Assembly: GCA_021822495.1 (NCBI GenBank)
Contig: JAKAQO010000001.1
Span: 124,001-188,000 of the forward strand
Reading direction: 5' to 3'
Length of the DNA stretch: 64,000 nt
Source of the DNA: a bacterium
GTDB lineage: Bacteria; Elusimicrobiota; Elusimicrobia; UBA1565; UBA9628
The translations under genes and the position numbers were made by a program. The first letter of the stretch is position 1. Every line of letters begins with the position of its first letter. Positions 2,008 through 58,922 of this stretch are shown here, one piece after another. The notes beneath the pieces are model-generated. The model saw only the letters and a list, made by a program, of their open reading frames with translations, searched no databases and was not told where the DNA came from.

Positions 2008-3221
2008 GGCGCTCTCCAAACTGTCACGAGTATATAGTTATGTTCAACGTTAAAAACCGGCGCGGGATTTCCATTATCGGCAAGCGCTTTTCGGGCTATC
2101 TGAATGCCTACTCCAAATTTCTGAACGAATCCGAGATTACGCATGACCTCGGCTACGTTGGGATTGCGATAATCCGTAATCCCCGGCTTGCCGAAATTTT
2201 CGAGAGTCACCTGACCGAACGGCCCTCCTGGATTTTGCATCTCGATACGGTCTGAAAACCACGTGACCCTAACCGGGGCATTGGAATTCGCGTAATCTCT
2301 ATGCATAACGGCATTCCGGACGAGTTGCTGAAGGGCGTCCAGTGGATAATCACGCCACTGTATTTCCGTTGAGGCCGATCGAACATCCGTCGCAATTCGT
2401 ATATTCGCGCGAAAAATTTCATCTATTTGGCGCATCAAGTCGGGAATAGGACCCTGAATCAGCTTTTGATCCGCGATTGGGTCCGCCAGGGTTGTTCCGT
2501 TTATTCTGAGAAATTGGATATAGGCTCCAGGCAGAAACGATTCGGGCCCTTTTCCGATGGCAATAATTCCCACAACCGTCGGCAGCGACTTATCTCCCAA
2601 GGTCAAAAACCGCAAAGAGGCCATCTGTTGCTCCAATGTCCTCCCATTTACCCGCAAAACCTCCGGGGCAATGGCCGAAGGCAGATAAACGCGGCGAAAA
2701 AAATCCTCATCCAAATCTTTTATGGAGGCGCTCGTGATTTGACGCAAATCATCGGGCAAATCGGCGGCCTTGCGCCTCTCGTTCAGTCGACGCTCTTCTT
2801 CCATTGAGGCAACAGCCCTTCGAGGTCCAACTCGTATCCAAACCTGACCTTTATAGCGAACCGGCGGAAAAAGAGACGGCCAGACGATAACAACAGCAAT
2901 CTCGCAACCATTCAACACGCGCTTTTCAACGGACATTGTGGGCATCGAAAGGATATTCCCGTTTGAACGCATATCGGAAAGTTGAATAAGCAACTCTTCT
3001 GTCACTCGCAACCCGGCACAATTACCGTCATCCCGTACGCCGATAAAAATGACGCCGGGCAGATTATGCCCCGGCATATCGTTGGCAAACGCGCAAATGG
3101 CCTTACACACATCGCCAGGGTTGGCAAGCGAAGCTTTTCTCTCAACACGATCTGACTCAATCTCTTTCAAGAGCGTTATGAGTTCGCTGTCATCCATGGA
3201 TTTCACCGCAGTCCCTGTCAT
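2004..3221 (-). CDS. AlbA_2 (Schlafen-like) / GHKL-ATPase protein
   Basis: A 405-aa protein of the COG2865 type. The N-terminal AlbA_2 nucleic-acid-binding domain (about residues 10-140) includes the E-x-K type segment ESDRVERKAS and VIFIGVRDDG. The C-terminal half contains a degenerate GHKL ATP-binding domain with LQQLVRNAVMHRDY and IEMQNPGG. Such proteins are often annotated as putative transcriptional regulators or RecG-like helicases, and some act in defence; no specific role is proven. The ATG at 3221 overlaps the pdhA stop as ATGA, with GAGGGG upstream, and its own stop overlaps the ParA start as ATGA. The two-gene module is therefore transcribed and probably translationally coupled inside the pdhA-pdhB operon, which is odd for a housekeeping locus and suggests insertion. 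Confidence 0.85.
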   Translation of the reverse strand: MTGTAVKSMDDSELITLLKEIESDRVERKASLANPGDVCKAICAFANDMPGHNLPGVIFIGVRDDGNCAGLRVTEELLIQLSDMRSNGNILSMPTMSVEKRVLNGCEIAVVIVWPSLFPPVRYKGQVWIRVGPRRAVASMEEERRLNERRKAADLPDDLRQITSASIKDLDEDFFRRVYLPSAIAPEVLRVNGRTLEQQMASLRFLTLGDKSLPTVVGIIAIGKGPESFLPGAYIQFLRINGTTLADPIADQKLIQGPIPDLMRQIDEIFRANIRIATDVRSASTEIQWRDYPLDALQQLVRNAVMHRDYANSNAPVRVTWFSDRIEMQNPGGPFGQVTLENFGKPGITDYRNPNVAEVMRNLGFVQKFGVGIQIARKALADNGNPAPVFNVEHNYILVTVWRAP

Positions 3222-4408
3222 GGAAAGCGCCCCTCAAGAGGCGGGATCTCGACGATTTCCCCCAAACGCATTTTTCTCTCAAGCAAAGCTTCGAGTTCGG
3301 CTCTTTGTTCGATTAAAGCTCGTGGCGCGCTCGCATAATTGTTGGCGAACATATCCAAAGGGTTCGGCTCAGGGAAAGACTCATAGGCCTTAATCTCCGC
3401 ATCCACCAGGGCCTCCGCGTTTTTGAGGAGTTCTTGATGCCGCGCTTCATCCATGAGTTTGAGCGTCTCCAAATATCGCCTAAGACGTAAAAGCGGATCG
3501 CGTTTGGCCCATTTCTCCACGTCTGTTTTCTCTCGGTAGCGGGAAGCGTCATCCGCAGTTGTGTGATTGGCCATGCGATAAGTCTCAAGCTCAAGAAGAG
3601 TCGATCCCCGGCCTTCCCGCCCGCGAGAAATGGCCTGCTGCATAGCGGAAAAAACTGCCAAGGCGTCGTTTCCGTCTACCTGAAGGCCAAACACTCCATA
3701 CCCATGGGCCTTTTGAGCGAAAGTCTCGGCTGCGCATTGCGTTCGCCTTGAAACCGAAATGGCCCATTGATTGTTTTCTATGAGGAATATCACGGGCAAT
3801 TTCATTGTGCCTGCAAAAGTTAAAGCCTCGTGCAAATCGCCCTTGGAACTGGCGCCGTCCCCCAAATAAGCCAAGACGACCGCGCCATCATCGCTAACGC
3901 CTTTCCCAAAGCGCGACAAGGACGCTCGGCCTTCGGCCTTGACCGCGCCTTTTTTTTCGAGTTTCGCGCCCCAGGCGAGCCCCGCAGCCAAGGTCAAATG
4001 CCCGCCGACTGTGATTGAAAACGTCATATCACGGTTTTCTTCCGGGAAAACGGTCCCACGGTCATCGCCCGCCCAGACTAAAAGCGAATGGCGAAATTTC
4101 ATTCCACGCCCGTAATACGCCCCGGTTCCGCGATAAGTGGGAATCATCCAATCCGAGGGTTTGAGGCAAAAAGCGGGAATAAGTTGGCTCGCCTCTTGTC
4201 CCAAAACCGAAGGATAGGTGCCTAAGCGGCCTTGACGCTGGAGCTTAATCGCGCGTTCATCGAATGCGCGGAGTTCAATCATTTTTTGGTAAATTTCAAG
4301 CAAGGTCTTGGAGTCAATGTGCGGATCAAGAGTGGAATCAACAGAGCCGTCTGGACTTAAAATCTCAAGACGCTGGGTTTCGTGGCGAACAACGGTTTCA
4401 AGAGGCAT
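3218..4408 (-). CDS. pdhA: Pyruvate dehydrogenase E1 alpha subunit
   Basis: Alpha chain of the E1 component (396 aa, normal for the heterotetrameric alpha/beta form). The thiamine pyrophosphate and Mg-binding motif is visible as GDGASSKGDLHEALTFAG followed by FLIENNQWAIS. It also shows YRGTGAYYGRG near residue 90 and the phosphorylation-loop-like segment RMANHTTADDASRYR. The N-terminus overlaps the lipA end by 11 bp and its stop overlaps the next gene as ATGA, so trxB-lipA-pdhA form one reverse-strand transcription unit with the accessory pair. pdhB follows only after those two genes. E2 and E3 are not in the window and may lie to the left. Confidence 0.94.
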   Translation of the reverse strand: MPLETVVRHETQRLEILSPDGSVDSTLDPHIDSKTLLEIYQKMIELRAFDERAIKLQRQGRLGTYPSVLGQEASQLIPAFCLKPSDWMIPTYRGTGAYYGRGMKFRHSLLVWAGDDRGTVFPEENRDMTFSITVGGHLTLAAGLAWGAKLEKKGAVKAEGRASLSRFGKGVSDDGAVVLAYLGDGASSKGDLHEALTFAGTMKLPVIFLIENNQWAISVSRRTQCAAETFAQKAHGYGVFGLQVDGNDALAVFSAMQQAISRGREGRGSTLLELETYRMANHTTADDASRYREKTDVEKWAKRDPLLRLRRYLETLKLMDEARHQELLKNAEALVDAEIKAYESFPEPNPLDMFANNYASAPRALIEQRAELEALLERKMRLGEIVEIPPLEGRFP

Positions 4409-5300
4409 GGACTTTTGAACCTTTCATGAATAATTCTCCAGCATGATAAGAACTGCGAACCAAGGGGCCGGAAGCAATTTCAGCAAACCCCATTTCTCTG
4501 GCGCGCTCAGCGTAAAAATCAAAACGCTCGGGACTTAAAAATTCCCGCACCGGAACATTCCGGCCGGATGAATCAGGCCTTAAATATTGTCCCAAAGTCA
4601 CAATCGAAACTCCCGCCGCGCGCAAATCCCGCAAAGACTCTAAAACTTCCTCTTCCGTTTCGCCAATTCCCAAAAGAAGCGAAGATTTCGCCGGAGTATC
4701 GGGCAAAACTTTTCGAAAATGAGCGAGAACGGCCAAAGATTGATCATAGCCCGCTTTTGAATCTCGAACCGCGGGAGTCAGCCGCCGCACGGTTTCAAGA
4801 TTGTGGGCCGCAACATCCGGCCGAACTTCTAAAACTTTCTCAATCAGATTTGTGTCCCCGCGAAAATCCTGCATCAAGACCTCGATTTTGGTCGTGGGAC
4901 AATTTTGCCGAATCGCTTTGATGCAGGAAGCGATATGAGAGGCCCCCTGATCCGGCAAATCATCCCGGCATACCGTAGTTAAAACAATATAGTCCAATTT
5001 CATCTCTTGAATAGTTTGGGCGAGTTTTTGCGGCTCAAGCGGGTCGGGCAGCGGAGGTTTTAAAGCGGAACTGACCGAACAAAAGCGGCAACCACGCGTG
5101 CATAATTCTCCCAAAACCATGAAGGTGGCTGTTCCCGCGCCCCAGCACTCGGCAAGATTAGGGCACCGGGCCTCTTCACAAACGGTATGAAGATTACGGG
5201 AAGAAGAAATTTTTTTAATGCGCTCGTAATTTTCTCCCGTTGGAAGCTTGACGCGAAGCCAAGCAGGAAAACGCGAAAGAGAAGCCTCCGCCACCGGCAT
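4398..5300 (-). CDS. lipA: Lipoyl synthase
   Basis: Radical-SAM enzyme that inserts two sulfurs into octanoyl-E2/GcvH to make the lipoyl cofactor. At 300 aa it has the usual length. The auxiliary iron-sulfur cluster cysteines are in CEEARCPNLAECW, the radical-SAM CX3CX2C motif is CTRGCRFC, and the C-terminal RSSYHAGE supplies the conserved serine ligand region. The start overlaps the trxB stop by one base (TAATG), and its end overlaps pdhA. Its position next to E1 of a lipoyl-dependent complex fits its function directly. Confidence 0.96.
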   Translation of the reverse strand: MPVAEASLSRFPAWLRVKLPTGENYERIKKISSSRNLHTVCEEARCPNLAECWGAGTATFMVLGELCTRGCRFCSVSSALKPPLPDPLEPQKLAQTIQEMKLDYIVLTTVCRDDLPDQGASHIASCIKAIRQNCPTTKIEVLMQDFRGDTNLIEKVLEVRPDVAAHNLETVRRLTPAVRDSKAGYDQSLAVLAHFRKVLPDTPAKSSLLLGIGETEEEVLESLRDLRAAGVSIVTLGQYLRPDSSGRNVPVREFLSPERFDFYAERAREMGFAEIASGPLVRSSYHAGELFMKGSKVHAS

Positions 5301-48387: not shown

Positions 48388-48678
48388 TCAATTTTTATGG
48401 ATGAAGGCGTCCAGAAAACTTTTAAACAGCGCTCCGTGGTTGGGAATCAAAAGGTGAAGGAGTTCATGGGCGATGACTTCATCTTGAAACGAGACGGGCT
48501 TTGACAAGAGACTCGCGCTGAAATAGACTCGTCCGCCGCTTGAACACGAAGCCCATTTATTTCGCATGGCCTGAACGTAAACGCGCTCAGGCTTGACCCC
48601 GATTTTCGCGGCCCAACGATTGACCCGCCGTTTAAAAAATGAAATGGATTTGGATTTTGCGCAAACAGTTTTCGTCAT
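48388..48678 (-). CDS. Short YgjP-like metallopeptidase linked to hsdR
   Basis: A 96-aa protein corresponding to the catalytic C-terminal half of YgjP/DUF45: MRNKWASCSSGGRVYFSASL and the zinc motif VIAHELLHLLIPNHGALF. ATGA overlap with the hsdR stop shows coupled expression. DUF45 peptidases commonly accompany type I restriction genes; their role there is unknown. Confidence 0.8.
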   Translation of the reverse strand: MTKTVCAKSKSISFFKRRVNRWAAKIGVKPERVYVQAMRNKWASCSSGGRVYFSASLLSKPVSFQDEVIAHELLHLLIPNHGALFKSFLDAFIHKN

Positions 48679-51557
48679 TTCGCGCGCAACTTGATGATTT
48701 GTTCCGCCGTCTCTTTCATCCGCTCAATTCCCACCGCGGGCCGCAAAATATTGTAGAGCTCGGCCTTGAGCCGCCGCATTTCCTCCGCGTTATCGGCAAA
48801 ATGGGGCAAGCGCTTAAAAACAGCTTCCGTCTTCTGGGCCAGGACATCGGCCTGACTCGCCTCGATTCTCTTGAGAACGCAAAAGACGGCGAAAGCCTCG
48901 GCGGAAAGCCCGGTTTTTTCAGCCTGGCGACTCCCGTCCTCATACTCCTTGAGCAAGGCTTCCAACTCTTTAAGAGCCTCTTCTGTCGCGAGAATCCGCT
49001 CCTCGTAATTCTTCAAGATTGCCTCGGCCCGTTCGCCGATAGGAATCAAAAACGGCTGTTTCTCTCCGCGCGCTTGAGCCAAATCCACAAGAGTTTTAAC
49101 CAGATTGATAATTTTAACCGCTGCCGGAGCCCGCTTTTTTTTAAGCGCCTCCAAAGCCGCTTCGTCAATAGAAACGGCCGGCAAAATAGCGCCAAAACCG
49201 TCAGCCTGGGCACATTCCCGAACGATGCCTTCTGTTTTCTTCATGATGTCGGCGTAAAGGCCGCGGCGCGGGTTGAGCGCGGCGCGGATGACCTGGTAGA
49301 GCCGGCAAAGATTGGCGTAATCTTCCATAAAGGGCCGCATCATGGGGTCGGGCGAAATAATCTCATAGAGGTTTTGAAGCCTTTTGAAGAAATCAAAAAA
49401 CTTGTCCCGTTTGGCGGGCTCACCCAGCTCGCTCATGGCCCGTTCCACGGACTTGTCATCCGTTCGCCCGCGGCACAGCTTCAAATAAGGCAAAGCTTCT
49501 TCCTTCATCATTCGGGCAAAAAGGTCCTTTAAGATATCCAGATTTTTGATGACGCCCTCGACGACGTCCGAGTCAAAAGACAGGGCTTTTTCCATGCGCT
49601 CAAAAATGCCGATAAAATCAATAATCAACCCGGCGGGTTTGAGGATTCCGGCATTCTCGTAAGGCCGGTTGACCCGCGCGACGGCCTGAAGCAAAACGTG
49701 GTCGCGCATGGGTTTGTCCAAATACATGCAGTAGAGTATCGGGGCGTCAAAACCGGTCAAAAGTTTTTCCGTGACGATCAAAATTTTAGGCTTTTCTCCC
49801 GGTTTGGTAAAAGCCTTGCGAACGCGCTTTTCCTCGTCTTCCCTGAGCCGGTATTGGGCCAAAAGAGGCTCGTCGTTATGCTTTGAGGTATAGACGACCG
49901 CGGAATATTCTTTCGGCAAAAGGCAGTCGAGCTCTTTTTTGTAAAGGGCGCAGGCTTCCCGGTCCACGCCGACCAAAAACGCTTTGTATCCCAGAGGCTC
50001 GACGTTTTCCCTAAAATGCTTGGCGGTAAATTCCGCCACGCGCCGGATATGGTCCTTGGATTTCAAAAACCCCTTGAGCTTGACAGCCTTTTCCAGAATG
50101 TCATTGAGCTCTTCGATGTCGCTGATTCCCTCGGCTTCGGCCAAGGCCCAAAATTCTTTCTCCAACAAGTCGCGATTCACCCGAATTTCATTGGGCGACA
50201 GGACGTAATGAAGCCTCAAGGTCGTCCCGTCCCGGATGGACTCTTGAACGGAATACTTGTCCAGATATCCTTGAAGATCGTCTTTCCCGAAAACCTTGAA
50301 CGTGCCCTTCCCGTAGGCGATTTTATCTATCGGCGTTCCAGTAAAACCGATGAAAGTCGCGCGGGGGAGAGCGGCCGTAAGATAATTTCCCAAATCGCTC
50401 CCGGTCGAACGGTGGGCCTCGTCCACCAAAACGAAAACATTCTCCCGGACGCAGAGGTCTTGATCCGTTTTCTCGAATTTATGAATCATGGAGACGACCA
50501 GCCCGCGGTAATCCGAGCGCAAAATGTCCTTTAAATCCTTCTTGTTTTGAACGACGCGCGCGGCGCCGTTTCCAAGAACGCTTGAAATCCAGCCGGAGAG
50601 CTGCCCTTCCAGTTCGTTGCGGTCCACCAACATGAGAACGGTCGGTTTTTCAATGGCGGAGCGTTCCAAAAGAATACGCGCGGCCGTGATCATGGTCAGG
50701 GTTTTTCCCGCGCCCTGAGTGTGCCAGATAAGGCCGGTTTTCTTGACTGGGTCAAGAGCCCGCTCCACGATTTTTTCGATCGCCCGCGCCTGATGCTGCC
50801 GCAAAACCGTTTTATGAAGTTCGTCATCCTTGAGATAAAAGACGATCCAGTCGCGCAGAAGTTTAAGAAACCGCTCGCGCGCGAAAAAGCGCTTGACCTT
50901 TCTCTCGAAGTTACCGGGCTCTTCTTCCTTCCAGTTGAAAATATTCTTTCTCTCAAGGCTCCAGGTCGCGCCGTAATAAAAATCTAAAAGCTGCGTGGCC
51001 TCAAAGACCTGGGGAAACGCCATCATTTCCGGAGTCTCCTCATGATAGCGGCGCAACTGAACGATCGCGCGGTCAATTCCGTCTTCATATTTCGCGCTTT
51101 TGGTTTCGGCGATGGCGACGGGAAGGCCGTTGATGAGAAAAACGATGTCCGCGCGATTAAGTTTCTGGCCGTTGGTGTAACCCCACTCATCGGTCGCTTG
51201 AAAAATATTGTTGGCCAAATGCTCAAAATCAACCAGGAGAACGTTTCTGCGGCGTTTTTCTTTTTCCAAATAAATCGACTGTTCGCCCCTGAGCCATTTG
51301 AGTATTTCGGCGTTGCCCTCAAGCGAAGAACGAACATTCTCGATGCGGGAAATGATTTCTTCCACATTTTTTTCATCCACAACGCCGGGGTTAAGCGCAA
51401 TCAGCTTTTCCCGCAAAACGGGATAAAGAAGGCATCCGCTTTCGCCGCGCCGCAAACCCAACGCCTCTTCGGGTGGAAGATAAGCCCAGCCAATCTCTTC
51501 GCAGTAGCGAATCAGCGGATTTTGGACGGAAGCGCGCTCGGAACCGAAATTAGACAT
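48675..51557 (-). CDS. hsdR: Type I restriction enzyme, R (motor/nuclease) subunit
   Basis: A 960-aa HsdR. N-terminal PD-(D/E)xK nuclease domain with RADIVFLINGLPVAIAETKS (Asp near 137, Glu-x-Lys at 151-153), then a superfamily 2 translocase: Walker A TQGAGKT (about 280-286), DEAH in LVDEAHRST (about 379-382), TFIGFTGTPI, and QAVARVNRPYE (motif VI). The C-terminal part is helical for docking to the methylase. It cuts unmethylated DNA after translocation. The first 41 bp are duplicated at the start of the DUF3800 gene. It has its own AGGA site and lies 158 bp from DUF3800. Confidence 0.96.
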   Translation of the reverse strand: MSNFGSERASVQNPLIRYCEEIGWAYLPPEEALGLRRGESGCLLYPVLREKLIALNPGVVDEKNVEEIISRIENVRSSLEGNAEILKWLRGEQSIYLEKEKRRRNVLLVDFEHLANNIFQATDEWGYTNGQKLNRADIVFLINGLPVAIAETKSAKYEDGIDRAIVQLRRYHEETPEMMAFPQVFEATQLLDFYYGATWSLERKNIFNWKEEEPGNFERKVKRFFARERFLKLLRDWIVFYLKDDELHKTVLRQHQARAIEKIVERALDPVKKTGLIWHTQGAGKTLTMITAARILLERSAIEKPTVLMLVDRNELEGQLSGWISSVLGNGAARVVQNKKDLKDILRSDYRGLVVSMIHKFEKTDQDLCVRENVFVLVDEAHRSTGSDLGNYLTAALPRATFIGFTGTPIDKIAYGKGTFKVFGKDDLQGYLDKYSVQESIRDGTTLRLHYVLSPNEIRVNRDLLEKEFWALAEAEGISDIEELNDILEKAVKLKGFLKSKDHIRRVAEFTAKHFRENVEPLGYKAFLVGVDREACALYKKELDCLLPKEYSAVVYTSKHNDEPLLAQYRLREDEEKRVRKAFTKPGEKPKILIVTEKLLTGFDAPILYCMYLDKPMRDHVLLQAVARVNRPYENAGILKPAGLIIDFIGIFERMEKALSFDSDVVEGVIKNLDILKDLFARMMKEEALPYLKLCRGRTDDKSVERAMSELGEPAKRDKFFDFFKRLQNLYEIISPDPMMRPFMEDYANLCRLYQVIRAALNPRRGLYADIMKKTEGIVRECAQADGFGAILPAVSIDEAALEALKKKRAPAAVKIINLVKTLVDLAQARGEKQPFLIPIGERAEAILKNYEERILATEEALKELEALLKEYEDGSRQAEKTGLSAEAFAVFCVLKRIEASQADVLAQKTEAVFKRLPHFADNAEEMRRLKAELYNILRPAVGIERMKETAEQIIKLRAK
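51517..51557 (-). repeat. hsdR start region, copy 1 of a 41-bp duplication
   Basis: The first codons of hsdR (ATG ... FGSER ... VQNP) recur at 52386-52426 with about 80% identity over 41 bp. See the second copy and the related finding. Confidence 0.7.
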
Positions 51558-51601: not shown

Positions 51602-51630
51602 TTGACGACGACGCTATTGACTGCTATACT
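51602..51630 (+). promoter_or_regulatory. Consensus promoter for the intergenic RNA
   Basis: TTGACG (51602-51607), exactly 17 nt, TATACT (51625-51630) on the forward strand, against the direction of the surrounding genes. Transcription would start near 51637 and read only into a structured, T-run-ended segment. Confidence 0.65.
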
Positions 51631-51636
51631 ACTAGT

Positions 51637-51717
51637 AGAGCAGTAAAGGTTCCGCCCTGATAACAAGAGCCCATGGGGCTCTCTCCGCAAGGAGTAGTCG
51701 GGGCGGTCGCTTTTTCT
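51637..51717 (+). ncRNA. Candidate small structured RNA between hsdR and DUF3800
   Basis: About 80 nt with an outer stem CCGCCC (51652-51657)/GGGCGG (51701-51706) enclosing two hairpins: AGAGCCC/GGGCTCT with a 3-nt loop, and CTCC-GCAA-GGAG with a GNRA tetraloop. UUUUU follows at 51711-51715. It has a 17-nt-spaced promoter and no ORF. Families of conserved RNA structures next to DUF3800 genes have been described (the DUF3800 motifs), so adjacency to the DUF3800 gene is notable; I cannot say which motif, if any, it matches. Transcription from the other strand as part of the DUF3800-hsdR mRNA is the alternative. Confidence 0.6.
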
Positions 51718-52426
51718 AGTAGTAGCGGATTGCGCCTTTTTTGAAAATTTCATATTCGCTTTGAATGCCTTTTGATATGAGATTATAGCTACGGCAATCA
51801 TTTCTTTCCCACTTCCGATAAATGGCCCAGTTGACGTAATCGGCGACTTGGAGATACAAGGACGCCTTCGATGAATGGTGTAGAAGACGATAGTGGGGAG
51901 CATTTGACGGCAACATACGCTGTAATGTAGTTTTTATGGCCTTTTCTATTGCGCGCCGTTTATGGCTTACCGGCAAAGAATCCGTAATGACCACCACCTC
52001 ATTGCAATTATTTATCGCGCTTCCATTGAATAGATATCGCAAGAGGTAGCCCAACATCTCCGGATAGAATCTTTCCAAAGCCCGCAGCGTCGGGCCGGTT
52101 TTGCTCTTCTCAACGATAAGAGAGTCAATCCGCAAGCGGGGTAGATTTTGGGACAGTTCGGCGAAAACCTTGTCTCTGACGGGTTGCCTGTCTTCAGTCG
52201 CGTGAAAAAATTCAAGATCGAGCCCGCCCTCGATCAAATCATAGCGCAGGTCGGACAAGGACCCGTAAAGAGAAAAAGGCCGACTGGCCGTTACAGTCGT
52301 CAGCGTGAAGTATTTTGTTCCAGTGGAAGAAAAATCGAGGTTGCCTCCTTCATCCAAGAAAATATATCGGTAATCCGCGGAAGGCGGATTCTGGACGGCG
52401 GGGCGCTCGGAACCGAATAACGTCAT
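51716..52426 (-). CDS. DUF3800 domain protein in the restriction operon
   Basis: A 236-aa protein. Family motifs: YIFLDEGGNLDF, KYFTLTTVTA, VVVITDSLPVSHKRRAIEKA and LQVADYVNWAIYRKW, with conserved aspartates in the same order as in the other DUF3800 gene at 11052. Its first 15 residues (TLFGSERPAVQNPP) are not part of the domain but copy the hsdR N-terminus (SNFGSERASVQNP). The gene start therefore seems to be a captured hsdR start. Start overlaps the previous gene as ATGA. Function unknown; probably an accessory of the defence island. Confidence 0.82.
   Translation of the reverse strand: MTLFGSERPAVQNPPSADYRYIFLDEGGNLDFSSTGTKYFTLTTVTASRPFSLYGSLSDLRYDLIEGGLDLEFFHATEDRQPVRDKVFAELSQNLPRLRIDSLIVEKSKTGPTLRALERFYPEMLGYLLRYLFNGSAINNCNEVVVITDSLPVSHKRRAIEKAIKTTLQRMLPSNAPHYRLLHHSSKASLYLQVADYVNWAIYRKWERNDCRSYNLISKGIQSEYEIFKKGAIRYY
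52386..52426 (-). repeat. hsdR start region, copy 2 (5' end of DUF3800 ORF)
   Basis: 41 bp matching 51517-51557, including GAACC/GCGCTCGG and GGATT-TGGACGG blocks. It keeps the ATGA overlap to the upstream gene, so it is probably the original hsdR start; the DUF3800 cassette was then placed behind it. Confidence 0.7.
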
Positions 52427-52890
52427 CTCGCGCTCAACTTGTCCTCGGTTCCCATTATTTCCAGCCGATCAAGGCCGTGCTGCTCGAATTCTTTTTCATA
52501 TTTTTCGAGAAAAGGAATTTGCTCGCGGTAAAAATCAGCGCCGTCCATTTTTTCAACGGCCTTCTCGCCGCATTTTCGAATCACGTCGCGCGTCGAGAGT
52601 TTCTCCAGAAGCTCATCCCAAAAAGTCTCCTCCTCGAATTCCAGCCTATATTTCGAGACCTCGGACTCCATTTCAAAATCCCATGCCAGAACAAACTCTC
52701 CCGACTCTTCATCGAATTCGAGCAGATCCTCCAAGTCCTCTCCCCTGGAAAACGAAAAAACATGCTGCTTGAGATCCTGGTATTTTTTTATGATTTCGTC
52801 GGGCTTGCGGCAGGCATTGACCATCCATTCGCCCAAATAGACCATCTCGATTAGCGTCTTATACTGCTCTTTTGTCAGCGTGATTTTCAT
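52423..52890 (-). CDS. 155-aa protein of unknown function in the R-M operon
   Basis: Acidic helical protein that starts ITLTKEQYKTLIEMVYLGEW and contains RKPDEIIKKYQDLKQHVFSF. I have no family name for it, although similar short proteins occur in restriction-modification operons. No enzymatic motif, membrane segment or HTH stands out. It overlaps the next gene as ATGA and is 27 bp after the HNH gene. Confidence 0.72.
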   Translation of the reverse strand: MKITLTKEQYKTLIEMVYLGEWMVNACRKPDEIIKKYQDLKQHVFSFSRGEDLEDLLEFDEESGEFVLAWDFEMESEVSKYRLEFEEETFWDELLEKLSTRDVIRKCGEKAVEKMDGADFYREQIPFLEKYEKEFEQHGLDRLEIMGTEDKLSAR

Positions 52891-52917
52891 GGATTCTCCT
52901 GTCGCAAAATCATGGTT

Positions 52918-53982
52918 TTAAAATTTAAACTGAGGCGTAGTCAGAATGAGACCGATCGGTTGCGAGTATTTCCCCAATTCGGAGATGGTATTGTTTCGAA
53001 CATCAAAGTGATGACCAGAACTAATAGGCAAGAAAATGGGGCCTGATAATCGAGGGCAAAGCAATATCTCATAGGTAATGGTATTGAAAAGCGAGACTCT
53101 TACAAGAATTTGCGTCCATCCTGTAATAGCATCAAGAGTTATCAAGTGGCCATCCGTCCGCCGCCATCTCTCTGAATCCGAAGCGAGAATTGGACGCCTC
53201 GATGGTCTAAAAATTCGATAGCCGGGTTCGGTTCCATTTCGGATAAATTCGCGCGCGGCGTCAAAATCCGGATGGAGACAGCGCTCCGCGCCCAAGACAT
53301 AGGCCATATAGTTGAAAGCGATCTTAGCAATGGTCCTCGCGGATATTCTATCGACGGTTCCCCGTATTTCCAGGGTTGTTTCCACGCCCATGGACTCAGG
53401 CGCCACAGCTTTTAATCCATTCTTGTATTTAATCCCAAGACGGCTAAATTCAGCAAGAATTTCATCTCTCTCATCTTGCGAATTGTCAATTAGAAGGATC
53501 GCCCGCGCCTCATTTTTAACGAAGCTATTGTTATCAAAAGAACTCATTCCTTGCAGTTCTCGAAGCAAAAAGAACTGCCGCCCAGCGCCCAATGCTCGTT
53601 TAAAACCCGCTTGGGGATGCCAGCGCATACAAGGCCGATCATCAGAACTCGCATCGAAATGCAGGCGCGCGCCTTTAAATTCCCCTTCCGGGATTACAAA
53701 TTCAACACGATCCCATCTTATTTCATCGCCTTTCGAATACTCCTTCAGTCCATGGTTAAACCTCTGTACGGCTTCATAACTGCCGCGACTGAAAGGATAC
53801 TCAAGCTCACGGCTGAAAAACGTGTTACAGTCTTGACAGACAGTGTCGTGAAGGACCAAGTTATTGCTGTCAAAGCGCCCAAACGCCTCGGGAATCACGT
53901 GTTCGCGGTTAAACGAGACTCCGCTTTTTTTACAATAAATACAAATTAGATTGGAAACACCATCGCGATTGGGGTTCATCAT
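52918..53982 (-). CDS. HNH endonuclease-type protein
   Basis: A 354-aa protein with an N-terminal HNH_5-like zinc nuclease motif: CIYCKKSGVSFNREHVIPEA then CQDCNTFF (about residues 14-56). The long C-terminal region is unlike known nucleases to my eye and may recognise DNA or a partner. It overlaps the stop of a hsdS remnant as ATGA, showing that the gene was originally coupled to hsdS. Could act as a modification-independent or methyl-sensing nuclease; this is inference. Confidence 0.8.
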   Translation of the reverse strand: MMNPNRDGVSNLICIYCKKSGVSFNREHVIPEAFGRFDSNNLVLHDTVCQDCNTFFSRELEYPFSRGSYEAVQRFNHGLKEYSKGDEIRWDRVEFVIPEGEFKGARLHFDASSDDRPCMRWHPQAGFKRALGAGRQFFLLRELQGMSSFDNNSFVKNEARAILLIDNSQDERDEILAEFSRLGIKYKNGLKAVAPESMGVETTLEIRGTVDRISARTIAKIAFNYMAYVLGAERCLHPDFDAAREFIRNGTEPGYRIFRPSRRPILASDSERWRRTDGHLITLDAITGWTQILVRVSLFNTITYEILLCPRLSGPIFLPISSGHHFDVRNNTISELGKYSQPIGLILTTPQFKF

Positions 53983-54081
53983 TCATTTCCCTCGACGCGA
54001 ATTTTCCCAGTCATAAGCAGATTCAACATGGAAGAAAAACCAGCTTGAAGAATCTCGGCGGTTTTGCGGTAGGTTTCGATG
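53979..54081 (-). pseudogene. hsdS 3'-end remnant
   Basis: About 84 bp closely match the 3' end of hsdS (55486-55570), including some 45 consecutive identical bases. The remnant encodes KTAEILQAGFSSMLNLLMTG and KIRVEGNE then TGA, which overlaps the HNH start. The present hsdS has a different tail. It is therefore the scar of a former hsdS directly upstream of HNH. The other 90 bp of this 188-bp gap hold no feature I can support. Confidence 0.85.
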
Positions 54082-54170
54082 TCATCTTTAATATTAGAGA
54101 TAACCACTACGACACAAACTTAAAGCCTTTTCCTGAGCGAGACGGAAGCAGTCGCCTATAGAAATATGAC

Positions 54171-55424
54171 TCATTTTACTTTTGTCAGGTTTTTGAGTAC
54201 GGATGACATAAGTTCGAATAGAGCATGTTTGGAAACCGCCTCTTCCTTTTCTCTCGGCTCCTCTCTCCCAAAGAATTTTTCCGTCAACTTCGCCTTAATC
54301 TCGTTTCGTTGAGTTTCAGGCAGCAGAACGAGGTAAGAGTCAATGGATGCAAGTTCGAGCTGAACCTTCCTTAGTAAATTCTCGCGGTCTCGATGTTTCG
54401 AGGATTCTTGTGCAGCGTAAACCGCTGGAATAGCAATTACAATCATCGTTCCAAATCTAAAAATAAAGGTATGCAAATTGACTTCATATTTCACACTCAA
54501 ATAAAATGAAAATCCAGCAACTCCAACCATGATTACCATTAAAAAGAATGCGCCCCGCCTAAGCCAATTGGCCGCTAGACGCTCATCATCAGCGGTTTTT
54601 TTGAAATGGCCAGCAAAGGCAGATGAACCAATGGCGCCGAATATGCGATCAATCTCTTCTTCTCGATGCTTCAAGCGTTGAAGATGTTGCTCTCCCTCCA
54701 CATTAATACTTTTATAAAATTCCTCAAACTGCTTTTTATTCCCCTCTTGCAATTTCTTTGCATCATCATCCGTTATTTTTAGAAACTGATTAAATTCATC
54801 TGCGCGCCTTTTAGAATCATTGATAAAAGCTGTTGCTCGGCCATTTTCTGTCGCCATGAATTGTTCCTGATACTTCGCGATAGAGTTATCAAGGCGACCT
54901 TTCTGTTGCTCAATCGAAGTTGTTAATTCTTTTAACCTTGCATTTTGATCTTCAATAGATTTATTAATAGCCTTAGCCGCTACTTTCTCATCGTCGAGGA
55001 TTTTTCGAGATTCTTCTAATTCTTCTGATATTTTTACCTGGTAAGACCGCACCGCTTCTACAATCGCTTTTACATCGTCTGCCATATTCCGCTCAATTGG
55101 GCGCAAGTTTCCCAATAATTGATCCGCCGTAGCATTCGCATTATTAAGAAAACCGGGCTGTGAATTTTGAGCAAATGTATTTATTTGGTTCTGGAGGGCA
55201 GTCATTTGTTGTCCTATGGATGCCCAAATATTTGACTGATAGAGTTCAGGATCCAAATGCTCCAATTGAGCCGCTATAACTTTGACGACTTTTAAAAGAC
55301 GAGCATAGTTAGCCAAATCGTTGGTATTTAATTTATCCGTCTTTGCGGAGTCCAAAAGTCTGGATGACTCTTTAATTTTTTGTATGAGTTGTTGCCCATC
55401 AAACCCACTACGCCATATAGACAT
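54171..55424 (-). CDS. Membrane-anchored coiled-coil protein in the R-M operon
   Basis: A 417-aa protein I do not recognise. Residues about 10-260 are helical and coiled (EESRKILDDEKVAAKAINKS; SIEQQKGRLDNSIAKYQEQF), two membrane helices follow at about 290-312 (GAFFLMVIMVGVAGFSFYL) and 322-342, then a cytoplasmic tail. Both termini should be cytoplasmic. It starts 3 bp after hsdS and is enclosed by hsdS and the hsdS remnant, so it moved together with this hsdS allele. A role as a membrane effector or anchor in defence is possible but unproven. Confidence 0.75.
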   Translation of the reverse strand: MSIWRSGFDGQQLIQKIKESSRLLDSAKTDKLNTNDLANYARLLKVVKVIAAQLEHLDPELYQSNIWASIGQQMTALQNQINTFAQNSQPGFLNNANATADQLLGNLRPIERNMADDVKAIVEAVRSYQVKISEELEESRKILDDEKVAAKAINKSIEDQNARLKELTTSIEQQKGRLDNSIAKYQEQFMATENGRATAFINDSKRRADEFNQFLKITDDDAKKLQEGNKKQFEEFYKSINVEGEQHLQRLKHREEEIDRIFGAIGSSAFAGHFKKTADDERLAANWLRRGAFFLMVIMVGVAGFSFYLSVKYEVNLHTFIFRFGTMIVIAIPAVYAAQESSKHRDRENLLRKVQLELASIDSYLVLLPETQRNEIKAKLTEKFFGREEPREKEEAVSKHALFELMSSVLKNLTKVK

Positions 55425-55427
55425 AAT

Positions 55428-56759
55428 TTATTCACGCTCCATTTTATTTTTCATTATATTAAGCTTCCCTAATTCCGAATCAACCCGAATTTTTCCAGTC
55501 ATGAGCATATCCAACATGGAAGAAAAACCAGCTTGAAGAATCTCGGCGGTTTTGCGATGGGTTTCGATGGAATGGTCAATTTTTGACAGCGTTGCCGCGA
55601 TAGCGCGTTGCTCAGCGAGCGGCGGCAGAGGACATTCAAACCGTTTTATGTCTTCCCAAGAAGTGCGCGGGTGATGCAATCCTTTTGTGGTTGTTACAGC
55701 GTGCTCGCGAAATCGGTTGGAATGGAGAAGAAAACTGATATAGCCCGCATCTATTTTATCTGTCATCGGTTGCAAAACAAGAATATCTGTTGAACATACG
55801 CCATCCGTTTGAATGAGTACAGATTTATCAAGATAAGGGCGAAGTTTCCCATACAGGATATCTCCAGGATAAAATCGCGCCTTTGTGCTCAAGAGTTCTC
55901 TTTCGCTTCCCCAACGGCGCAATTCGGAAATTCCAGAATCAATATGTTCCAAACCAACATAACATCGATTCCCATTAGGAGATGGTTGAGTAAGCTCGCG
56001 GCGAAGTTCGCAAAGTTTGCTTAATTGCGTTGTATCCCACCCCTCCGGCAAGGGGCCGATCTCGGTTTCCTTGAGCTTCTGACCCCGCAGTCCCTCGCGA
56101 AAAATCTTCTCCATCGTCGCGGATTTAAGTTCCTTGAGCGTAGAAACTATTTTACCCTGCGTTTCGGACGCGGACTGGATTTTGGAGAGAACCGCCGCGA
56201 TGGCGCGCTGCTCGGGAAGAGGAGGTAGTGGAACCACGAATTCTTTCAAGCGTGCTGAAGAAAGATTCGGTATGGTCGTCTTATTGGCCGCACCCTCATA
56301 AATATTTCGATGAAGAATCGCTTCCTGAAGCCAATACATGAAAAATCTTGGCTCTATATCGTCTGTAGCGCGCCGTAGCCGGTGAATGTGATTCTGATAA
56401 AGACATCCGAGAAGATCATTATTCCAGATAGCGGCCCGCCCGACTTCACCGCCTTCACAGACTAATAGATCTTCTGCGCGCAAAGCGTACTTCTTCGCTT
56501 CCTCTTCCGCAAAGTGCATGGTGTCAACCGTCAAAAGATCAATTTTCCCCCAGAGAACGTTCGATGTTCGCAGGAAAGGAATCTGAATGGGGCCCTTACG
56601 ACTTTCTTCCGACATCGCCTTGCCTTGTTGAATATCGAAAAGTTTCCCAAGAGAGGATACGCTCCACCCCTCAGGCAATGGGCCGATTTCGGTTTCCTTA
56701 AATCGCGTCTGATTAGAGACAGCCGGCATAGGAGCGTTCGACAGGGGTTTAACGGCCAT
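55428..56759 (-). CDS. hsdS: Type I restriction enzyme, S (specificity) subunit
   Basis: A 443-aa HsdS with two target-recognition domains and two conserved repeats: ETEIGPLPEGWSVSSLGKL with LPPLPEQRAIAAVLSKI, and ETEIGPLPEGWDTTQLSKL with PLPPLAEQRAIAATLSKI. The N-terminal half thus reads one half-site, the C-terminal half the other. The C-terminal tail (after LMTGKIRV) differs from that in the remnant at 53979-54081. A 315-bp gap with an RNA-like segment separates it from hsdM. Confidence 0.95.
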   Translation of the reverse strand: MAVKPLSNAPMPAVSNQTRFKETEIGPLPEGWSVSSLGKLFDIQQGKAMSEESRKGPIQIPFLRTSNVLWGKIDLLTVDTMHFAEEEAKKYALRAEDLLVCEGGEVGRAAIWNNDLLGCLYQNHIHRLRRATDDIEPRFFMYWLQEAILHRNIYEGAANKTTIPNLSSARLKEFVVPLPPLPEQRAIAAVLSKIQSASETQGKIVSTLKELKSATMEKIFREGLRGQKLKETEIGPLPEGWDTTQLSKLCELRRELTQPSPNGNRCYVGLEHIDSGISELRRWGSERELLSTKARFYPGDILYGKLRPYLDKSVLIQTDGVCSTDILVLQPMTDKIDAGYISFLLHSNRFREHAVTTTKGLHHPRTSWEDIKRFECPLPPLAEQRAIAATLSKIDHSIETHRKTAEILQAGFSSMLDMLMTGKIRVDSELGKLNIMKNKMERE

Positions 56760-57074: not shown

Positions 57075-58922
57075 TCACGAGTTGACCCAATGGTAGCCAA
57101 GCCCGGAAAATATTTTTTTAAGCTCCGCGTCCTGAGTCACGGTTTCCTTCTTTAGCCTGGACAAATCCTTTAAAATGTCTTGAACGTCCCGGCGCTCCGC
57201 CGCCGCGGCGGTTTCAATGTAACGGGACGGAGAAAGATTGAAATCATTTTTACCCGCGATGTCCTTAACCGAGACGAGTTTGGACAAACGCTCCACGTCT
57301 TTTCCGGCGCGAAACGCCGCCCCGACCTTTTCGATAGCCGTCTCGGGCAAGAAATTCTTGGGCCGGCTTTTCTCGAACTCGCCAGAAGCGTTAATCATCA
57401 AGACCTTGCCTTGACGCTCCTTGACCTTGGCGTTATTGAGAACCAGAATGAGGCCGGCGGCCGTCGTGTTATAAAACAAATTGTCGGGCAAAAGAATAAC
57501 GGCCTCAATCAAATCCCTCTCGACAAACCACTTTCGGATGGATTTTTCGCGATTATCCCCCTGGCTGCCGCTGCCGCGGCTGGCGGCTCCGGTGTCTAAA
57601 ACCACGGCGGCCCGGCCATCTTCCTTTAAAGACGCATGAATATGCTGGAGCCAGGCCCAGTCCGCGCTTTGTTGCGGAGCGTAGCCCCCGCGCCCCGAAA
57701 ATCGGTCCAAAGGATCTTTTTCGTAAGTTTCCGCCGGATCAAAATTCTTTTGGTTCCACATTGGATTAGTGACAATCAGATCAAAACGCTTAAGCCGCCC
57801 GCCCTCGCGGAATTTGGGGTTGGACATGGAATTGCCGCGCACGACTTCCCCTTCCATATCGTGAATCACCATGTTCATACGCGCGATGGCGAAACTTGAG
57901 CCCATCAATTCCTGGCCGTAGAGTTTCAAGGGCTTCGCCACGCGGCCCTCGCGCTCATTTAAGTCCAACTCGCATTTAATGAGGAGGCCTCCCGAACCAC
58001 AGCAGGGGTCATGGGCTTCTTCTCCCTGTTTGGGACGAAGAATTTTCGCCATCAACCGCCCAACTTCGCGAGGAGTAAAAAACTCCCCCGCGCTTTGGCC
58101 TTGCCCTTCCGCGAATTTGCGGAGTAAATACTCGTAAGCCCGGCCCAAAAAGTCCGGCTCGACGTCGTTTAAACCCAGTCGGTGGCGGCTCAAGGTCTCG
58201 ATAAGACGTGAAAGCGCGTTGTCGCTAATCTCGCGCTCGCCGTTTCGCGCTTCATTGTAATCGACAATGTCGATCACGCCTTGCAGGGATTCGTTGGCCT
58301 TGGCCACGGAGCGCATGGCGCTGGTGACGCGCTCGCCTATGGTTTTGGGCGCGCGGCCCGAAGGCCAGGAATAAGTTTTCCGGCCGCTTAAAACTGGCCA
58401 GCGGGCTTCGGCTGGAATATAAAAGCGCACCAGAGAATGATCAGCCTCCACATTTTCCAAGGCAGTCACCTCGTTGCTGAAGGTTTTAATCAGCCGGGAA
58501 ATTTCATCATCAAAAACATCCGAAAGGCGTTTTATAAAAATTAGAGGAAGAATATAATCCTTGAATTTCGGCGCGTCTTTCTCGCCGCGAATAGAGCAGG
58601 CGGCCCGCCAGAGCATTCCCTCCATCGTTTTTAAATCGAACGCGGCGGGAGCGATCGAATTTTCATCTCCCTCGGGCTCTTGGACTGAAACAGACGCGGT
58701 TTCTGGAAAAAAATCCGCCAGAATATCGGCGCAATCATGCCCTTTTCCGGCGATGAATTGGCGAATCAGATTGAGAATGGCCAAAGTGGGAACGGTTTTT
58801 TCGTTTTCCCAGCGGTTAATCGTTGGATAGGAAACGTGAAGAGCCTTGGCCAAATCCGTTTGCGTCATCTCCAGACGCTTGCGGAGAGTTTTTAATAATT
58901 GGGCGGTTTCAGACTTTTTCAT
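57075..58922 (-). CDS. hsdM: Type I methyltransferase (M subunit) with fused XRE-type HTH
   Basis: A 615-aa N6-adenine methylase. Residues about 5-65 are a helix-turn-helix of the XRE family (LRKRLEMTQTDLAKALHVSY, PTINRWENEKTVPTL), not part of ordinary HsdM (about 500 aa). HsdM_N domain follows (about 100-245), then motif I DPCCGSGGLL (305-314) and motif IV variant TNPMWNQ (385-391). HsdM with HsdS protects host DNA, with HsdR cuts foreign DNA. The HTH probably binds the inverted repeat that encloses its own promoter, as a restriction control protein would. The start codon lies in that repeat; the message is nearly leaderless. Confidence 0.95.
   Translation of the reverse strand: MKKSETAQLLKTLRKRLEMTQTDLAKALHVSYPTINRWENEKTVPTLAILNLIRQFIAGKGHDCADILADFFPETASVSVQEPEGDENSIAPAAFDLKTMEGMLWRAACSIRGEKDAPKFKDYILPLIFIKRLSDVFDDEISRLIKTFSNEVTALENVEADHSLVRFYIPAEARWPVLSGRKTYSWPSGRAPKTIGERVTSAMRSVAKANESLQGVIDIVDYNEARNGEREISDNALSRLIETLSRHRLGLNDVEPDFLGRAYEYLLRKFAEGQGQSAGEFFTPREVGRLMAKILRPKQGEEAHDPCCGSGGLLIKCELDLNEREGRVAKPLKLYGQELMGSSFAIARMNMVIHDMEGEVVRGNSMSNPKFREGGRLKRFDLIVTNPMWNQKNFDPAETYEKDPLDRFSGRGGYAPQQSADWAWLQHIHASLKEDGRAAVVLDTGAASRGSGSQGDNREKSIRKWFVERDLIEAVILLPDNLFYNTTAAGLILVLNNAKVKERQGKVLMINASGEFEKSRPKNFLPETAIEKVGAAFRAGKDVERLSKLVSVKDIAGKNDFNLSPSRYIETAAAAERRDVQDILKDLSRLKKETVTQDAELKKIFSGLGYHWVNS

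Follow-up and report, generated by a model that had tools for sequence, protein, structure and literature searches.

The RNA gene and its host operon

The window, that is, the whole 64,000-nucleotide stretch of DNA analysed here, contains a type I restriction operon encoded on the minus strand, with the gene order hsdM-hsdS-p417-HNH-p155-DUF3800-hsdR. The operon comprises (i) hsdM (57075..58922), which encodes an N-terminal helix-turn-helix (HTH) domain; (ii) hsdS (55428..56759); (iii) three further cargo genes occupying positions 52423-55424 between hsdS and hsdR, namely p417 (54171..55424), with a weak LeoBC-like match, HNH_5 (52918..53982), and p155 (52423..52890); (iv) the DUF3800 gene (51716..52426; PF12686, 39.5 bits); and (v) hsdR (48675..51557). 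Between the last two, and on the strand opposite to both, lies the gene of a small structured RNA, convergent to the DUF3800 gene.

This RNA gene, which has a promoter and a U-tract of its own, is confirmed at the sequence level at 51645-51712 of the plus strand, where the structured core scores 85.8 bits with the covariance model R1. The promoter, TTGACG-17 nt-TATACT (51602..51630, plus strand), places TTGACG at 51602-51607 and TATACT at 51625-51630, scores 10/12, and includes an extended TG. Read 5' to 3', the RNA displays the architecture AAAGGUUCC-P1-GAUAACAAG-P2-P3-GUAG-P1'-UC, then UUUUU. The outer stem P1 pairs 51652-51660 with 51698-51706 (CCGCCCTGA/TCGGGGCGG, 9 pairs) and encloses two hairpins: P2 (51666-51672/51676-51682), with 7 bp and a triloop, and P3 (51683-51686/51691-51694), whose 4 pairs form the CTCC-GCAA-GGAG hairpin at 51683-51694. 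The U-tract TTTTT (51711..51715, plus strand) makes up a terminator together with the P1 stem and adjoins the DUF3800 stop codon. The calculated folding energy is -39.8 kcal/mol (z -4.8), a value equalled by 0 of 200 shuffles, whereas the opposite strand folds more poorly (z -2.6). The initial annotation had described the promoter opposite both neighbours, the outer stem, the 7-bp and CTCC-GCAA-GGAG hairpins, the UUUUU run, and the location inside a type I restriction operon, and each of these elements is found in the window.

The interval between hsdS and hsdR appears to be a cargo hot spot, because relatives carry different cargo subsets; in a same-genus site empty of the DUF3800-RNA cassette (G003:C91), p155 directly precedes hsdR. 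The DUF3800 ORF of the window opens with 43 nt (52384..52426, minus strand; ~14 codons) that form an in-frame fused segment resembling the start of hsdR, with 34 nt 88% identical to 51515-51548 of the resident hsdR start (51515-51557), as if this second hsdR start had been left by recombination; the native DUF3800 protein start lies near DYRYIFLDEGGN. The segment was rejected as a general mark of insertion, being unique to the window and not present in other homologues.

The DUF3800 protein

By sequence, the DUF3800 protein has no relatives in the PDB (best 0.14). The AlphaFold2 model (pLDDT 90.5) predicts an RNase HII fold, the best VIA-align match being RNase HII itself (1eke; Z 12.0, rmsd 3.5 Å, 168 residues), with Argonaute PIWI domains ranking below it at Z near 9. 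RNase HII displays its acids in the order DE...D...D; the DUF3800 proteins share this order, in that D11, E12, and D182 are invariant in 52/52 sequences and D135 is conserved in 51/52. The protein would share with RNase HII the class II RNase H fold and the DE..D..D acids, both as predicted in the model, but the two differ in that sequence identity is ~11%, each DUF3800 protein comes with an RNA of its own, and DUF3800 is sporadic and mobile whereas RNase HII is a housekeeping enzyme.

Conservation of the RNA and pairing with DUF3800

A protein search for homologues retrieved 60 genomic loci spread over many phyla, many of them from metagenome assemblies, and 2 loci from viral contigs. In 59 of the 63 sources, the covariance model recovers this RNA at an identical position next to the DUF3800 homologue (E 1.7e-22 to 6.7e-6), and in almost all loci it lies directly past the stop codon of DUF3800 and on the other strand; the four sources in which the model misses it are contigs ending at the gene (L041, L059) or fragmentary homologues (L065, L066). 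This recurrence, which far exceeds what chance would give, substantiates the earlier proposal of an independent RNA gene linked to DUF3800. The proposed location in a gap between hsdR and DUF3800 describes the window correctly and does not extend to the family as an hsdR-specific gap, the constant neighbour being DUF3800; most homologous cassettes are not adjacent to hsdR.

Across 54 aligned RNAs, 99.4% of stem cells are paired, double-sided compensatory changes occur at 16 of the 20 pairs (9+7+4), and the covariation score reaches 0.425, compared with 0.178 for shuffles, in line with the compensatory changes expected in homologous loci. The plus strand is favoured because G-U cells outnumber A-C cells by 18 to 1. 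Loop bases and 5' single-strand bases are conserved, the ends are constant (AAAGG at the start, GGUC at the end), and the leader from the -10 element to AAAGG varies between 5 and 24 nt from locus to locus. An upstream promoter scoring at least 9/12 is present in 42% of the loci; shuffled sequences give 4%.

These features bear on two simpler explanations of the locus. A simple terminator, or regulation of DUF3800 or hsdR by an antisense RNA, would account for an RNA placed between convergent transcription units with a U-tract at its end, but the conserved loop and 5' single-strand bases and the excess of G-U over A-C cells argue otherwise, and phage copies of the RNA without either gene, described below, contradict it, leaving this explanation extremely improbable; an antisense role on hsdR, raised by the initial annotation, is further disfavoured by the fact that hsdR is not a constant neighbour and that orphan RNAs sit in phage tRNA arrays. 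A guide RNA directing DUF3800 to foreign nucleic acid, also raised there, is suggested by an RNase H-like fold beside an RNA. It is nevertheless very unlikely, as a variable spacer is absent at both ends, the leader has no fixed length, the terminator follows straight after P1, and there is usually a single copy per genome, beside DUF3800. The combination of variable guide and constant scaffold typical of RNA-guided nucleases (TnpB/IscB-like) is not seen in this RNA, and we know of no CRISPR array paired with it.

Pairing between RNA and protein extends to the genome level. The RNA occurs in 6 of 340 genomes of the Elusimicrobiota phylum and in 6 of 394 genomes of the Nioella family, with DUF3800 adjacent in 6/6 cases in both, and 49 of the 50 genomes behind the loci carry the RNA, nearly always as a single copy beside DUF3800. 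It also adjoins gp54 of Gordonia phage Kenna, a DUF3800 homologue with 26% protein identity, as well as an 81%-identity relative of Kenna gp54. The protein is encoded on three plasmids, and the RNA is present on both plasmids checked of those three; a blastn search of plasmids and E. coli with the RNA returned no match. Ruegeria sp. TM1040 and Phaeobacter piscinae also possess both partners. No intact DUF3800 of this group was seen without the RNA. The RNA is retained beside a broken DUF3800 in L064 and G367:C216, and extra tandem copies follow the first one in L030 and L045. These second copies (L030, 6869-6942; L045, 6907-6982) are diverged, with their stems intact.

Relation to reported DUF3800-associated RNAs

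RNAs adjoining DUF3800 genes have been on record for years and, to our knowledge, have no known function. The RNA described here is, on sequence evidence, a conserved structured RNA beside DUF3800 and as such a DUF3800-associated RNA. The Rfam families RF02969 (DUF3800-I), RF02968 (IX), and RF03075 (VIII) are likewise structured RNAs reported beside DUF3800 genes, and DUF3800-VIII resembles the new RNA in its outer stem and in the GUAG that precedes the 3' strand of that stem; the new RNA differs from the Rfam DUF3800 RNAs in its two inner hairpins, the AAAGG start, the GGUC end, and the phage orphan copies. Identity with an Rfam DUF3800 motif, for which a covariance check had been suggested, was not borne out: the window RNA matches no family of Rfam 15, even at E<=10, and the RNA found no match in ten loci scanned whole against Rfam, where the sole DUF3800 match is a separate DUF3800-VIII in L022. 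RF02969 gave no match in the genomes of the phylum, nor in the control genomes. The novelty of the RNA rests on its absence from Rfam 15 families. At 2690-2829 of L022, the Rfam DUF3800-VIII RNA stands in tandem with the new RNA, with a shared promoter-like site upstream, and the pair is followed by an apparent remnant of a restriction gene start.

A mobile cassette

The sequence neighbourhoods indicate that DUF3800 and the RNA travel as a small cassette, often in type I restriction operons. The cassette is inserted between hsdS and hsdR in the window and several other loci, the immediate upstream neighbour encodes HsdS in 11 of 54 loci, HSDR_N or ResIII genes lie downstream in 8-10 of 54, and integrases are neighbours in 5 of 54, the remaining neighbours being mixed from locus to locus. 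In the phages Kenna and Lutum, the DUF3800-RNA pair is located between the immunity repressor and the integrase, adjoining the repressor. A nuclease gene between hsdS and hsdR of a type I restriction operon recalls cargo of the PrrC type; nevertheless, the DUF3800 fold is unrelated, many cassettes sit elsewhere, and no control by Hsd was seen here.

Orphan RNAs in phages

Viral contigs were scanned with patterns and then with the covariance model, and complete phages were retrieved afterwards by BLAST. The scans disclose the RNA without DUF3800 in 16 records, of which L138 and L142 share one RNA sequence, and BLAST places orphan RNAs in the complete cultured Mycobacterium phage Nebkiss and in the Corynebacterium phages phi16 (two copies) and PSonyx. 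A copy of the RNA without the effector gene, as expected of a phage mimic, is found by sequence in a total of 19 viral records, several of them contig fragments, with PF12686 matching 0/19, whereas paired records do match PF12686. BLAST matches in Pantoea phage PA1 and Bacteriophage sp. MT836071 were unconfirmed by the covariance model, and both were rejected as orphan carriers. The contig-search patterns demanded motifs such as AAAGGT and GAYAAG, and the occurrence of these two in the orphans is therefore selected; the features outside the patterns, including UAG, GGUC, and the pairing, are all kept, with P1 covariation of 0.71 versus 0.23.

Many orphans are associated with phage tRNA genes. 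The gaps span 0-6 nt over L175, L185, L192, phi16 (two), and PSonyx: the L185 orphan lies 5 nt from a tRNA gene and the others leave no gap or overlap the tRNA gene by 1 nt. In addition, the L177 orphan is embedded in a tRNA cluster and that of Nebkiss is 77 nt from a tRNA gene. The L138 orphan carries a near-consensus promoter (TTGACA-17-TATACT), and the Nebkiss RNA is 92% identical to the DUF3800-paired RNA of Kenna. The two phi16 (L197) orphans map to 3010-3074 and 3238-3302, each abutting a tRNA gene; the feature table of the public phi16 record lists neither the RNAs nor the tRNAs found by ARAGORN. In L139, an orphan (4621-4686) lies within a phage operon just before an 835-aa gene, portal-like by eye, with no tRNA beside it.

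The mobility of the cassette and the phage copies could also be understood outside defence, if a DUF3800-based mobile element used the RNA as its substrate or as a recognition end and the phage copies were leftovers or served RNA processing in tRNA operons. The cassette is indeed mobile; a same-genus genome has an empty site, integrases are among the neighbours of the cassette, and orphans adjoin tRNA genes. However, neither common ends nor target duplications of the cassette were seen across loci, and the orphans preserve a covarying structure with no DUF3800 remnant, one of them behind its own strong promoter; we regard this explanation as unlikely.

A proposed model of an RNA-restrained nuclease and its phage mimic

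From the RNA gene, its fold and strand, the strict pairing with the protein, the mobility, and the phage orphans without nuclease, all of which are established from sequence, we infer a model whose steps are binding, inhibition, trigger, and counter-defence. DUF3800 would be an RNA-restrained defence nuclease and the phage RNA a counter-defence mimic, to which we assign a probability of about 0.5. The RNA would be the dedicated partner of the RNase HII-like DUF3800, both forming a small mobile defence cassette, with DUF3800 transcribed from whichever operon the cassette joined. The convergent, independently promoted RNA of 65-80 nt would bind the nuclease and hold it inactive like an RNA antitoxin. 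Infection would disturb the RNA or its supply, and the freed DUF3800 would cleave RNA or RNA-DNA hybrids and block the phage. Phages would escape by producing the RNA themselves, in several cases within a tRNA operon, whose processing by RNase P would free the 3' end of the RNA.

Restraint of the nuclease is the simplest reading because the RNA occurs without the nuclease, and not the reverse, and because phages would gain from whole copies. It is supported by the persistence of the RNA beside broken nucleases or as extra tandem copies; the viral records without PF12686 and the close identity of the Nebkiss RNA to a paired RNA beside a repressor, that of Kenna, further support the mimic, and the HsdS and HSDR_N/ResIII neighbours support the defence setting. 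Several points count against it: many cassettes adjoin ordinary, not defence, genes; the orphan RNAs are also compatible with decoys that mimic a necessary cofactor; the RNA departs from type III antitoxin RNAs in the ways set out below; and several orphan records are fragments retrieved with patterns that demanded particular motifs.

The arrangement resembles type III toxin-antitoxin systems (ToxIN, AvcID), which also join an effector protein to a small structured RNA partner encoded by an adjacent gene. In type III systems the antitoxin RNA, as in the case of ToxI, consists of repeats transcribed together with the toxin. In contrast, the new RNA is single and convergent and has its own promoter, rather than forming upstream repeats on the same transcript, and DUF3800 is distinguished from ToxN and AvcD by its predicted RNase HII fold. 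Phage mimics of antitoxin RNAs, with which the orphans may be compared, are known from the pseudo-ToxI RNA that mimics the type III antitoxin ToxI (PMC3475682), and phage tRNAs act as counter-defence against defence nucleases (PMC11555353).

The same orphans could, somewhat less probably, be titrating decoys in the manner of RNA anti-CRISPRs, the RNA then being a required cofactor and the nuclease active only as an RNA-protein complex. The strict one-to-one pairing and the conserved unpaired bases agree with a cofactor, DUF3800 proteins occur alongside some Cas12a2 and VI-F systems (PMC10910872, PMC12669027), and solitary-repeat RNA decoys exist in phages (PMC10651486). Nevertheless, the orphans retain the elements conserved in hosts, UAG and GGUC among them, with no functional part lost, and loci with a broken nuclease still retain the RNA, so that we hold the cofactor role to be possible at well below even odds. 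RNA anti-CRISPRs (Racrs, solitary repeat units) are likewise isolated copies, carried by phages, of an RNA from host defence (PMC10651486), whereas the orphans described here are complete copies, several of them beside tRNA genes. Returning to the restrained nuclease, there is an even chance that the locus represents a new class of RNA-controlled defence nuclease, in which an RNase HII-like DUF3800 has its own non-repeat sRNA, and that the orphans are a new class of counter-defence RNA, produced in phage tRNA operons and freed by tRNA processing.

Implications

The phage copies may be the missing clue to the function of DUF3800-associated RNAs. If the model is true, it would provide the first function for these RNAs, add an RNase HII-like effector to the RNA-protein defence modules, and add an RNA to the means of phage counter-defence. 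Phages that infect two laboratory hosts, Mycobacterium smegmatis and Corynebacterium glutamicum, have the RNA alone, placed for co-processing with tRNAs, which suggests that further such RNAs may be hidden in the unannotated gaps of phage tRNA clusters. Through the phage orphans, the old puzzle of the DUF3800-associated RNAs becomes approachable by plaque assay.
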